From a bacterium (GTDB lineage Bacteria > Armatimonadota > Zipacnadia > Zipacnadales > Zipacnadaceae): a stretch of 28,438 nucleotides of DNA. Of this stretch, positions 1 to 28,438 are shown one piece after another. The stretch covers positions 1 to 28,438 of the forward strand of contig JAUVXR010000032.1 of NCBI GenBank assembly GCA_030603495.1, written 5' to 3'. The notes beneath the pieces are model-generated. The model made no database searches. It saw only the letters and a program-made list of their open reading frames with translations, and was not told the DNA's origin. The first letter of the stretch is position 1, and every line of letters starts with the position of its first letter. A program made the position numbers and the translations under genes.

Positions 1-86
1 TGCTGTGTTCGCCTTGCATAAGCTCAATCACCATTGCTACAGAATAATGGTTCAATTACTACCGATGATTCTAGCACATCGCCCAC

Positions 87-114
87 TTGACAGCAAGCCC
101 CCCTCTGCTATAAT
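87..114 (+). promoter_or_regulatory. Sigma70-type promoter facing right
   Basis: A TTGACA box at 87-92 and a TATAAT box at 109-114 are separated by 16 bases, so both hexamers match consensus exactly. No convincing gene starts directly behind it. It lies just inside the IS-end-like motif at 124-140 and points outward, as outward promoters at insertion-sequence ends do. Whether it reaches the mannosidase gene at 564 is inference. Confidence 0.6.
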
Positions 115-123
115 GAGAATGTA

Positions 124-140
124 ACTTTCGCAACAGTCTC
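124..140 (-). repeat. IS-terminal-inverted-repeat-like motif (left copy)
   Basis: Read on the minus strand this is GAGACTGTTGCGAAAGT. It matches the plus-strand motif at 27747-27763 at 15 of 17 positions, and both differences are transitions. The pattern GAGRCTGTTGCRAAAGT resembles the terminal inverted repeats of insertion sequences. In this orientation the element would lie to the left, mostly outside the window. No transposase is visible in the first 123 bases, so the family cannot be named. Confidence 0.4.
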
Positions 141-3202: not shown

Positions 3203-3814
3203 GTGACAAGAAATGCTGACAACAAGGCAGCATTGGCCGATTGCAGCCTAAGTCAGAGGAAACACCTGATGGTTGAAGATAGGAGAACCGACTTGTGGGT
3301 ACGATTTGACCGGCGGATACGGTTGCAGTTCCAGGGGGCAAAGGTTACTTCTGACACCGGGCTGTTAGCGGTAAGAGAGCTGGAGCGGGCCCTGGGCTTG
3401 ACCGAGTCGTCGACCACCGTGCTGCTGGCGATGGTGGGGTTCGGGGCGGTTCTGGGGGCAATGATCGGCCTGGCTTTTGGGAGTGTCGAGGGCCTGTTTG
3501 CGGGGGTATGGGAAAAGGCGGCTATTGGCGGGACGCTCGGTCTGCTAATAGGCGGCGTCGGTGGTGCTTTTGGGGGGTTGTTTGGCAAATTGCCTTGCAG
3601 CATGCTGCAAGGCGGGGGACCGATGGGTATTGCCCAAATCGCCGCCCGGGCTCTGGGCTGGGGTGCGGTGGACGTACTTGTTGGCCTGGGTCAGGGTGTG
3701 ATGATGCGTGCTCCTCAGAAGGTCCTCAACGGCCTACTCGGCGGGGCCGTAGGCGGCTCCGTTAGGGGCAACAGTGCTCCGGGGTACGCAACGCGGCCGA
3801 TGCCGCAACAGTAG
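3203..3814 (+). pseudogene. Chimeric ORF: IS1380-type transposase N-terminus joined to a glycine-zipper membrane segment
   Basis: This is an open frame of 203 codons made of two unrelated parts. Residues about 29-68 (RFDRRIRLQFQGAKVTSD, then a GLLAVREL-like stretch) match the start of IS1380-family transposases. The DDE catalytic core that should follow is absent. From about residue 72 the protein becomes a run of Gly-rich hydrophobic helices (GAVLGAMIGLAFG, IGGTLGLLIGGVGGAFGG, LNGLLGGAVGG). These resemble the glycine-zipper membrane part of some FHA-type or similar envelope proteins. The join is near nucleotide 3407. A GTG start at 3203 has GGGAGG upstream; an in-frame ATG at 3269 would be closer to the transposase start. 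The tail after residue 188 is no longer hydrophobic and ends 19 bases before the convergent methyltransferase gene. The 296 bases before it (2907-3202) hold no gene and may contain the transposon's left part. It is most likely a rearranged remnant without transposase function; expression of the membrane part is possible. Confidence 0.6.
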
Positions 3815-24048: not shown

Positions 24049-25311
24049 ATGCTGGATCTGGCGGACCTACAAGAGAAGACAGTAGATGAACTGCATGAGA
24101 TAGCAACGGGGATGGAGGTCGCGGGCTGCTCGGGCCTAAGAAAGAGTGACTTGTGCATGAAGATACTCATGGCCCAGAGCGAGCAGGATGGGAACAAGTA
24201 CCAGTACGGTGTGCTGGAGATTGCCTCCGACGGCCGGGGCTACCTACGCGTAGATGGCTATGCGGCTAACCCCATCACCGATGTCTATGTGGCCGACAGC
24301 CAAATCCGCCGCTTCGGCTTGCGGACCGGGGACATGATCAGCGGCCCGGTTCGTCCGCCCAAGAATAGCGAGCGTTACTGGTCATTGCTTCGCGTCCAAA
24401 CCATTAATGGCCTGCCGCCGGATGAAGTCGGTCAGCGCCCCGATTTCGAACAGCTTACGCCTGTCTATCCCGACGAGCGTATGCGGCTGGATGCCAACAG
24501 TCCTGGCAGTATCGAAGGGCGGCTTATGGATATCGTTACACCGATTGGCCGGGGACAGCGAGGGCTTATCGTCTCGGCTCCCAAGGCCGGTAAAACCACC
24601 GTCATCAAGCAGATCGCCAACTCCCTGACCTCCAACTACGACGACCTGCGGCTGCTAATCCTGCTGGTGGACGAGCGTCCCGAGGAGGTCACGGATATTG
24701 ACCGCTCGGTGGAAGGTGAAGTGATCAGCTCGACCTTCGACCAGATGCCGGACAACCATATGAAGGTTTCCGAGCTGGTTCTGGCCCGAGCTAAGCGCCT
24801 GGTGGAGCAGGGCGAAGATGTCGTGGTTCTGCTCGACAGCATCACCCGGCTGTCCCGTGCCAGCAACCTGACTATTGATCCCAGCGGCCGCACCCTGTCG
24901 GGGGGACTCGACCCCAGCGCGCTGTATCGGCCCAAACGCTTCTTCGGGGCCGCCCGTAATATCGAAGGGGGCGGTAGCCTCACCATTCTGGCGACCATTC
25001 TCGTCGAGACGGGCAGCCGGATGGATGATATGATCTTCGAAGAGTTTAAGGCCACCGGCAATATGGACCTCGTGCTTTCCCGCTCACTTGCCGACCGGGG
25101 CATATTCCCGGCGGTGGACATCGCTCGTTCCTCGACGCGTCACCAGGAGTTGCTCTTTAGCGACGAGGAGATGCAGTCCATTTGGCAGTTGCGCAAGGTT
25201 CTGCATAAGATGGAACCCGCGGAAGCGCTCGAAACGCTGCTGGCCGGCATACGCAAGACTAAGACTAACCAGGAATTCCTGGCCATGGCCGCGGAGTCTT
25301 TCGCCCGCTAA
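24049..25311 (+). CDS. rho: Transcription termination factor Rho
   Basis: This is the hexameric RNA helicase that ends transcription at Rho-dependent sites. The 420-residue product has an N-terminal helical part (LADLQEKTVDELHEIATGM), then the RNA-binding OB domain (YGVLEIASDGRGYLR, then RRFGLRTGD). The ATPase core shows Walker A SAPKAGKTTV (176-185), LVDERPEEVTD, Walker B VVVLLDSITRLSRA, and the Q- and R-loop regions with GALDPSAL-like and FFGAARNIEGGGSLT sequence. Length and motifs are normal for a short Rho without large N-terminal insertions. The ATG follows a GAGAGGTG site. Confidence 0.96.
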   Translation: MLDLADLQEKTVDELHEIATGMEVAGCSGLRKSDLCMKILMAQSEQDGNKYQYGVLEIASDGRGYLRVDGYAANPITDVYVADSQIRRFGLRTGDMISGPVRPPKNSERYWSLLRVQTINGLPPDEVGQRPDFEQLTPVYPDERMRLDANSPGSIEGRLMDIVTPIGRGQRGLIVSAPKAGKTTVIKQIANSLTSNYDDLRLLILLVDERPEEVTDIDRSVEGEVISSTFDQMPDNHMKVSELVLARAKRLVEQGEDVVVLLDSITRLSRASNLTIDPSGRTLSGGLDPSALYRPKRFFGAARNIEGGGSLTILATILVETGSRMDDMIFEEFKATGNMDLVLSRSLADRGIFPAVDIARSSTRHQELLFSDEEMQSIWQLRKVLHKMEPAEALETLLAGIRKTKTNQEFLAMAAESFAR

Positions 25312-25358: not shown

Positions 25359-26210
25359 ATGTTAAGCCCGCTCGCCCAGTCGCGCAGGCTAGTTGGCCGG
25401 CTGGTGCCACTGGGGCTGGCCCTGGTGGCCGTGGTAGGTATCTCCTGCCGCTCGCAGCTCAAGTGCGTCCCGCCTACAACTGCTGCCCCGCCGGAGGGTG
25501 CACCGCGTGTGCTTGCGCCTGCTCATGGCGCAGTGCACGACCTGATGGCCGATATTAGGCTGCTGGAGATACTCAATCGCTTGGCCCTAACCCACCAGCA
25601 GCTTGACCGACTGATTCCTCTGGCTAGCCGGCTCCAGGACCTGCAAGCCCGCTATGATCAGCGCAATGCTGCCGTGGCTGAGCCGATGCACCCTCTGCTG
25701 GTCGAGAAGCGGAACCTGCTGATCGAAGGCAAATCATCCCCACCACAGTTGGAACGCGACATCGGCACTCTGGAGGGCAAGCTTGCGGCGATTGACGAAG
25801 AGCTGGCGGCCGCCCAGGAAAGCCACCTTGCCGAGATAAACAGCCTCCTCACCGAATCTCAGCTCGGCGTCTTGACTGGGGCTGCGGAAGCCCGCCGCCA
25901 AGCGGCTGAGCTGTTGACCTGGTTCCGCGAGATGCCCGAGTCGGAATACGAAGACGAGGCTGAGGCCACCGCCGAGGCCTTCGCCCAACCGGAGTTAGGC
26001 TTGGGACCAGGTACGCTCAATACCTGCTTCAATACCGCCCGCTACTTGTCGGCCGAGCAATACCAGACAGTGGCTGACGACCTTATAGACCAGATTGCGC
26101 CACTATACGGGGCGACGCCCGAAGCAGCCAATCGGGCCATACTTGGGACTTTCGCTAATTCCCGGATGCTGACCATTCTCCAAGACAAGGCGGAGGCAGT
26201 CTCTCAGTAG
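25359..26210 (+). CDS. Predicted lipoprotein with coiled-coil helices
   Basis: The product is 283 residues long. A basic N-terminus and hydrophobic stretch (LVPLGLALVAVVGIS) end at a Cys near residue 30 (GISC), a weak lipobox. It may be a lipoprotein or simply secreted. The rest is almost all charged helix, with heptad-like Leu spacing (LEILNRLALTHQQLDRLIPL, then LERDIGTLEGKLAAIDEELA), similar in style to Spy/CpxP-like or LTXXQ periplasmic proteins, though no motif is firm. The start follows GGGGAG by about 11 bases. It is 47 bases after rho and 3 bases before the glycosyltransferase ORF. Confidence 0.6.
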   Translation: MLSPLAQSRRLVGRLVPLGLALVAVVGISCRSQLKCVPPTTAAPPEGAPRVLAPAHGAVHDLMADIRLLEILNRLALTHQQLDRLIPLASRLQDLQARYDQRNAAVAEPMHPLLVEKRNLLIEGKSSPPQLERDIGTLEGKLAAIDEELAAAQESHLAEINSLLTESQLGVLTGAAEARRQAAELLTWFREMPESEYEDEAEATAEAFAQPELGLGPGTLNTCFNTARYLSAEQYQTVADDLIDQIAPLYGATPEAANRAILGTFANSRMLTILQDKAEAVSQ

Positions 26211-26213
26211 ACT

Positions 26214-27689
26214 ATGCGCGTAGGCATCTTCACCAACACTTATCATCCTACCGTTAACGGCGTCGCCAACTGTGTGGCAGCCTACCGGGAGGGCTTGACT
26301 GATCGCGGGGCAGAGGTCACCGTTTTCGCCCCCGCCCCGCCGAAATACGACCGGAGCAACGACCCGGACAATGTCCTGCGCTTCCCGACTCTGCCCGTGC
26401 CCATGGACCTGGACTATTCCATTGCTATGCCCTACTCCGGTTCTGTACTCAAAGCTCTCCAGCGCATGCAGTTCGACATTATTCATACCCAGCATCCGGT
26501 CTGGGTCGGCGCCTGGGGGGCCTGGTATGCTCGGTGGAACGATACGCCACTGGTGACGACGGTTCACACGGAGTACGAACTCTTTGCGCCGATGGTGCCG
26601 CTGCCGACCCCGCTGGTAGAAATGTATCTGGGGGTACGGGTCACCTCCTACTGTAACAAGTGCCAGATGGTCACCACAGCGGTTGAGTCAACGCGCCGTC
26701 GCCTCATCGAACAAGGCATCACCACGCCCGTAGAGATCCTGCCTAATCCCATCCGTGTAGCCGAATTTGCGCAGGTAGACAGCACCGCCGTTCGCCGCAG
26801 GCTCGGACTGGACGACGATACCGTTCTCATCGGCTTTGTGGGCCGACTCTCTCCCGAGAAGAATCTCGACGTATTGCTCCAGGCCGTCAGTACTGTCCTC
26901 CGCCAAGCCCCGAACACTACTTTCGTGGTCGTGGGCGATGGCCCGGAGATGGCAAGTGCTAAGAGGCGGGTCGCCCACTTGAGCGCTGCGGAGCGGGTCT
27001 TCTTCGTCGGAGCTGTGCCCTACCCGCAGATCCCGCCTTATCAAGCAGCGATAGATATAATGGTCACGGCCAGCCTAGCGGTGGTGGCCACATTTCGCTG
27101 GTTCAATGAATACTGTGATGAACGGGCCCCACAAATACTGGGGGGTTACAAGCTGGGCCAAGCCGGAGGGATAGAGCGAAAACAGCTCCGTGCTGCCTTC
27201 ATCGTGGCAATTGTAGTATCCATCGTATGGTGTGCTTGGACTCACTTAGACATCTTCTACCGGCACGGTGCGGCGATGGCCACTACGGGGGACTGGTACA
27301 CCCTTGAAGGAGGCCAATGGCTTTGGAACAGATTGCAGACATGGCTAGAGTTTCCCGAGGGCCCCGATCTCTGGGAAATTGGTGGTTACCTATCGGGCGG
27401 TGCCGCTGCACTGTTGCTGACCAAGATCCGGTGGGCCTCGGCCACGTGGCCGCTGCATCCTCTGGGCTATGCCCTGGCCTTTACTAACTCAACGGAATTC
27501 ACGTGGTTGCCCTTTCTCATCGGTTGGTTGATTAAGAGCACAATTCTTCGGTACGGAGGATTCAAGGTCTACCGCCGCGTGGTGCCGTTTTTCATTGGGC
27601 TGATTATAGGAGATCTCGTCACCGGGGGATTATGGGGACTGTACGGCGTCATAATTGGTGAGCGCATGTACATGTTCTTTCCCCACTAG
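26214..27689 (+). pseudogene. Chimeric ORF: GT4 glycosyltransferase N-terminus fused to DUF6784-type membrane C-terminus
   Basis: An open frame of 491 codons joins parts of two unrelated genes. Residues 1-287 are a GT4 glycosyltransferase of the GT-B fold: MRVGIFTNTYHPTVNGVAN, FDIIHTQHP, VTTVHTEYELF, VGRLSPEKNLDVLLQAV and FVVVGDGPEM. The sequence stops at AAIDIMVTAS, just before the ExxxxxxxE donor-binding segment, so donor-sugar binding is probably lost. From about residue 288 (nucleotide 27075) it continues with the C-terminal part of a DUF6785/6784 membrane protein: LHPLGYALAFTNS, GWLIKSTILRYGGFKVYRR, PFFIGLIIGDLVTGGLWG. Helices lie at about 325-342, 391-405, 430-444 and 458-480. The DUF6785 N-terminal half is absent. 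The join is in frame. This could be a genomic deletion fusion or an assembly chimera; activity as either parent is doubtful. Confidence 0.7.
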
Positions 27690-27763: not shown

Positions 27764-27947
27764 CGCCTTATATTCTTGCAGTTCGGGGCGAAGCTATATG
27801 CGTTCTGCTTCGGGGTGGGCTAAGGGGGCAGACTAATCTTTCCCCCAGGCAGGGAACTATGACGTTGGCCGGGACTAGGGACATCCCTGGCATACCATCT
27901 GAGAAATGTCAGGTTGAGCAAAACACTTCTAAAAAGGAGGCAGTATT

Positions 27948-28438
27948 ATGAAGACGGCCAGTCTTGTCGGTTTGATGATGCTCATTGCAGCAGTCAGCCT
28001 CGTAAATGCGCAAGCAAAGGAGAGTCCGATGTCTGACGACTTCAGCAAGCCGTTCGCGCCAGATGAGCGCACGGTGGTTTTGTATCATTTCGATGAGGGG
28101 GAAGGGGACGAGGCGCATGACGCCTGTGGTGATCCTGAGCTGACGCTGCGAGTCCACGAAGAGGCGTTGTGGGGCAGTCGGCCGGGCTTCGGGGCCACGG
28201 CGCGCTTCGAGCGGCTCGAGGACGACGCCAACGTATTTGTCGGGCCGGTTAACAACCCCAAATTGATGTTGAAGCCCTGTACCCGGGAATGGACGGTGGA
28301 AGCCTGGGTTCGTTACACCGGACCATGGGGTGGGTGGGCGTCGGCGAACATTACGTACGCATACATTGCCGGATCGTCGGAAGAGGGCTATTATCTGTCG
28401 CACACTGGGGTCCGGGCCGGATTTCAATTACGGCTGCA
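27948..28438 (+). CDS. Secreted LamG/concanavalin-like domain protein (partial)
   Basis: The frame runs off the right edge after 163 complete codons. The N-terminus MKTASLVGLMMLIAAVSLVN followed by AQA is a signal peptide. The mature part shows the LamG-like jelly-roll pattern: TVVLYHFDEGEGDEAHDACG, TARFERLEDDANVFVG, and REWTVEAWVRYTG. This Y/W-rich, beta-strand pattern is typical of LamG_3 domains that bind carbohydrates or form adhesive layers. The ATG follows a strong AAAAAGGAGG site by 7 bases. It has its own intergenic region. The C-terminal part and any further domain are outside the window. Confidence 0.85.
   Translation, partial: MKTASLVGLMMLIAAVSLVNAQAKESPMSDDFSKPFAPDERTVVLYHFDEGEGDEAHDACGDPELTLRVHEEALWGSRPGFGATARFERLEDDANVFVGPVNNPKLMLKPCTREWTVEAWVRYTGPWGGWASANITYAYIAGSSEEGYYLSHTGVRAGFQLRL

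Follow-up and report, generated by a model that had tools for sequence, protein, structure and literature searches.

The open reading frame at positions 26214-27689 of the window, that is, of the entire contig C34 with its 28,438 bases, is with high confidence an assembly chimera near a contig end, and its existence as a natural gene is very improbable. The evidence points to two ordinary genes that were joined during assembly: the 5' part of a GT4 glycosyltransferase (GT) gene and the 3' part of a gene for a membrane protein of the DUF6785/DUF6784 type. An assembly artefact is the most likely explanation because the portion that each gene lacks is found where another contig of the assembly breaks off, with the GT 3' part at the start of C55 and the N-terminal half of the DUF6785 protein at the end of C33. 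If accepted as it stands, the reading frame would be recorded in databases as a novel domain architecture. The draft genome comprises 2.67 Mb in 62 contigs and is 93.5% complete, and its nearest named relatives are metagenome-assembled genomes (MAGs) of Candidatus Zipacnadia, a lineage described within Armatimonadota (PMC10290634).

Domain Organization of the Reading Frame

The initial annotation described an in-frame chimera of a GT4 glycosyltransferase and a DUF6785/DUF6784 membrane domain, and this description was borne out, as the frame is open over 491 amino acids and Pfam profiles match both halves with scores far above chance. The GT4 5' part (26214-27080, + strand, codons 1-289), assigned by orthologue identity and by both of its Pfam profiles, contains the N-terminal acceptor-side Rossmann domain of the GT4 type, recognized as Glyco_transf_4 (PF13439) at residues 14-182 with an E value of 8.5e-26. 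It is followed at residues 191-287 by Glycos_transf_1 (PF00534), of which only profile positions 3-100 of 172 are covered, and a complete donor-binding C-terminal domain with the EX7E motif is absent. In alignments with intact orthologues, GT-like sequence extends to residue 289 (...MVTASL), right before the SETQ...TEAM stretch that forms the EX7E donor motif; the break had therefore been correctly placed ahead of the donor Glu motif, although about two residues too early, at residue 287. Because the protein as assembled lacks this donor-site motif, no catalysis would be expected of it.

The remaining part of the frame (27081-27689, + strand), assigned by identity to locus G001:C33 of a relative and by Pfam, consists of the end of DUF6785 (PF20581) at residues 283-352, covering the last 72 positions of the profile (427-498 of 498), and of a DUF6784 C-terminal domain (PF20580) at residues 393-489, covering profile positions 5-100 of 101 (4e-30). 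This agrees with the earlier observation that the sequence after about 27075 is the C-terminal part of an unrelated membrane family. The full N-terminal membrane domain of DUF6785 is not present, about 425 of 498 positions (about 85% of the profile) being missing from the frame, and neither parent is complete, as had been proposed.

The junction (27070-27095, + strand), a probable assembly join, was located by codon comparison with the GT and DUF6785 orthologues of G001: the GT side ends with the codons GCC AGC CTA, and the sequence is DUF6785-like from about GCG GTG GTG GCC. It lies approximately 1.36 kb from the right end of C34, and the contig crosses it without any N. That the two parts are joined in frame is by itself weak evidence for a gene, as about one in three random joins keeps the frame.

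The Glycosyltransferase Gene

Residues 1-289 are 80% identical to the intact 389-amino-acid orthologue in G001 and 57-80% identical to those of other family members. An orthologue is present in all 14 other genomes of the family, and the 13 copies uncut by a contig end encode an ordinary GT4 of 388-389 amino acids; the SETQ...TEAM motif is invariant in all 13 and absent from the reading frame. The nearest NCBIfam model, NF049988 (alpha-monoglucosyldiacylglycerol synthase), scores far below its cut-off.

The upstream order TS-rho-lipoprotein-GT is common to the window and the relatives: rho (24049-25311, + strand), identified with Pfam and by comparison with relatives, retains its synteny with GT, and a putative lipoprotein gene (25359-26210, + strand), assigned by gene-order comparison, is the gene immediately upstream of GT in relatives. 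On the 3' side, carB directly follows the intact GT gene in eight relatives from two genera (G001, G003, G004, G005, G006, G007, G008, and G009). A search of the genome itself with the missing part retrieved the absent GT C-terminus at C55:10-282, 67% identical to G001, and carB lies 3' of this piece at C55:488-3757. Because the upstream order and carB match those of the relatives, the two halves of the GT gene, on C34 and C55, each occupy the expected neighbourhood. About 10 residues are missing between the two parts, and the opening ~15 bases of C55 code for something other than the TEAM residues that are invariant in the 13 relatives.

The DUF6785/DUF6784 Gene

The DUF 3' part on C34 is about 58-59% identical to G001:C33 (58% over residues 287-440). 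The genome contains a single long DUF6785 N-terminal half that runs into a contig end; it lies at C33:25496-26371 on a contig of 26,444 bases, covers profile positions 2-295, and is 61% identical to G001:C33, the same locus as that matched by the C34 tail. As both pieces match this one locus, they are probably parts of a single gene, from which an intervening stretch of roughly 145 codons is absent. The link between C33 and C34 is less secure than that between C34 and C55, since lon, the neighbour of the DUF gene in G001, was not found in the last 6.4 kb of C33 and the G001 copy is itself frameshifted and cut by a contig end; of the two links, only that of the GT gene is backed by the order of neighbouring genes.

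Other copies of this family are also irregular. The closest DUF6785 relative, G001:C33 (L049 813-1787 and 1-882), is split over two overlapping reading frames, apparently by a frameshift or a sequencing error. In G009, a 128-amino-acid reading frame on C128 (L055 6938-7324) joins the start of DUF6785 directly to its last 56 residues, which are 73% identical to the window tail, and it probably reflects an internal deletion or another assembly join. Further DUF6785 fragments at G000:C27:69859-70086 and G000:C28:300-581, one of them with three internal stops, suggest that the family is decaying in the window's own genome (G000). No papers turned up when the literature was searched for DUF6785.

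Selection on the Four Pieces

Nei-Gojobori estimates with G001 as the reference gave dN 0.12 and dS 1.38 for the GT 5' part, dN 0.27 and dS 1.16 for the GT 3' part on C55, dN 0.35 and dS 1.89 for the DUF 3' part, and dN 0.29 and dS 1.67 for the DUF 5' part on C33, values that are only indicative because dS is near saturation. In all four pieces dN is well below dS, which denotes purifying selection at the codon level. This pattern indicates that all four still evolve as coding sequence or did so until a very short time ago, as expected of two intact genes.

Contig Ends and the Origin of the Join

The last 84 bases of C33 (26361-26444; L088 6362-6445) are an exact copy of C5:13457-13540, where they lie antisense within an unrelated GT4 gene, and the identity between C33 and C5 stops abruptly at the junction. 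C33 thus provides another chimeric contig end besides that of C34, which shows that this assembly does produce them. Sampled contig ends share exact overlaps of ~140 bases, which suggests de Bruijn graph assembly with k near 141; with such a k, the join probably had backing from some reads or from contigs built at a smaller k. This counts against an assembly chimera, as do the absence of N at the junction and the fact that the unique part of the C34 tail has no duplicate elsewhere in the assembly.

Both ends of C34 lie in repeats. At the right, an intergenic repeat (27777-27967, + strand) 5' of a LamG-like gene has partial copies of 86-95% identity on C9, C27, C58, C20, C5, C14, and C19, and no Rfam family was found at this repeat. 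The LamG-like gene itself (27948-28438, + strand), a multi-copy gene for a secreted protein that is named by resemblance, is present only as its 5' part, as the contig end cuts it; the 163-amino-acid piece has no Pfam match, and copies 93-95% identical to the gene are likewise cut where C14 and C19 end. That the C34 tail stops inside this gene is an ordinary repeat break. At the left, window positions 1-140 are a repeat with copies of 97-100% identity at the starts of C38, C22, and C32; C27 and C60 also carry copies, and the repeat may be the end of a mobile element. A transposase-like fragment (PF13701, under the cut-off) lies at window positions 3203-3814.

In the reconstruction that we favour, the GT4 gene would continue from C34 at about 27080 across a gap of ~30 bases into C55, yielding an ordinary GT4 of 389 amino acids between the lipoprotein gene and carB. 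The DUF6785/DUF6784 part would come from a different gene, one for a membrane protein, of which C33 ends with the N-terminal half; this gene would probably be followed by the LamG-like repeat gene in which the C34 tail stops. The assembler would have joined the GT 5' part to the DUF 3' part, perhaps via chimeric reads or a strain variant. The positions of all four pieces and the conserved synteny are observed directly, whereas we infer that the organism lacks the join and that the DUF pieces on C33 and C34 make up one gene; mixed strains in the metagenome may have caused the join.

Alternative Explanations

A real and very recent rearrangement, by insertion, translocation, or excision of a segment, might instead have broken the GT and DUF6785 genes in this strain or in part of its population, leaving the reading frame as a by-product in which a dead GT is joined to a partial membrane protein. 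Such an event would account for a junction assembled without any N, in a graph assembly that normally needs some supporting sequence, and for two genes that are each split, as reciprocal breakage requires; DUF6785 copies also look decay-prone, given the internally deleted copy in G009 and the fragments in G000. However, the reciprocal join of the DUF N-terminal half to the GT C-terminal half was looked for between the C33 end and the C55 start and was not seen, C33 ending in the C5 copy and C55 starting at GT; the detached GT 3' piece still has an intact frame, at a dN/dS of about 0.2; and no relative shares the fusion. We therefore regard a rearrangement as unlikely, and as very improbable the version in which it gave an expressed, membrane-anchored, non-catalytic protein made of the GT4 acceptor domain and the last DUF6785/DUF6784 membrane segments. 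Even if a rearrangement were true, the protein would still be without the motif of the donor site and without the greater part of DUF6785.

The two readings offered by the initial annotation fared worse, although its domain call and break point stood and it had itself named an assembly chimera as the outcome that would refute them. Loss of the DNA between GT and a downstream DUF6785 gene, leaving an in-frame fusion, would fit two incomplete parents on the same strand and in frame, but this deletion is rejected as scarcely credible, since the DNA that ought to have been lost is still in the assembly, the GT 3' end and carB on C55 and the DUF N-terminal half on C33, and a full-length carB match occurs only once. 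A working protein of novel architecture, derived from GT4 and tethered to the membrane, for which an open frame and a membrane-type C-terminal sequence could be cited, deserves equally little credence: its donor domain is cut before EX7E, its DUF6785 lacks most of the profile, each missing half is elsewhere in the assembly, and the 41 genomes searched offer no homologue of this architecture.

A natural fusion family was likewise rejected. Of the order's 41 genomes searched, only the window's own reading frame gave a match extending over both halves, and the 40 others gave none; the exact junction had no hits in viral_contigs, and a scan of genome_contigs returned GT-side relatives only.

An assembly chimera thus remains the preferred reading. 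Searching the ends of the remaining contigs in a draft genome for the two missing halves is a cheap check, and it suits any apparent single-genome fusion near a contig end.

Comparison with Known Systems

Residues 1-289, the start codon, and the upstream gene order of the reading frame are those of the order's GT4 proteins (e.g., the 389-residue protein of G001:C75), but unlike these the frame lacks residues 290-389, including EX7E, and most of that part is on C55. Similarly, residues ~290-491 resemble the corresponding region of DUF6785/DUF6784 proteins (PF20581 plus PF20580, ~650 amino acids, e.g., G001:C229) in carrying the final portion of DUF6785 and almost the whole of DUF6784, whereas the bulk of DUF6785 is missing from the frame and an N-terminal half lies at the C33 end. 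Overall, the case shares with chimeric ends of draft metagenome assemblies a junction close to where the contig stops, missing halves at the ends of other contigs, and a second chimeric end (C33/C5), and it differs from them in its long foreign tail of 1.36 kb, whose unique part occurs once in the assembly.
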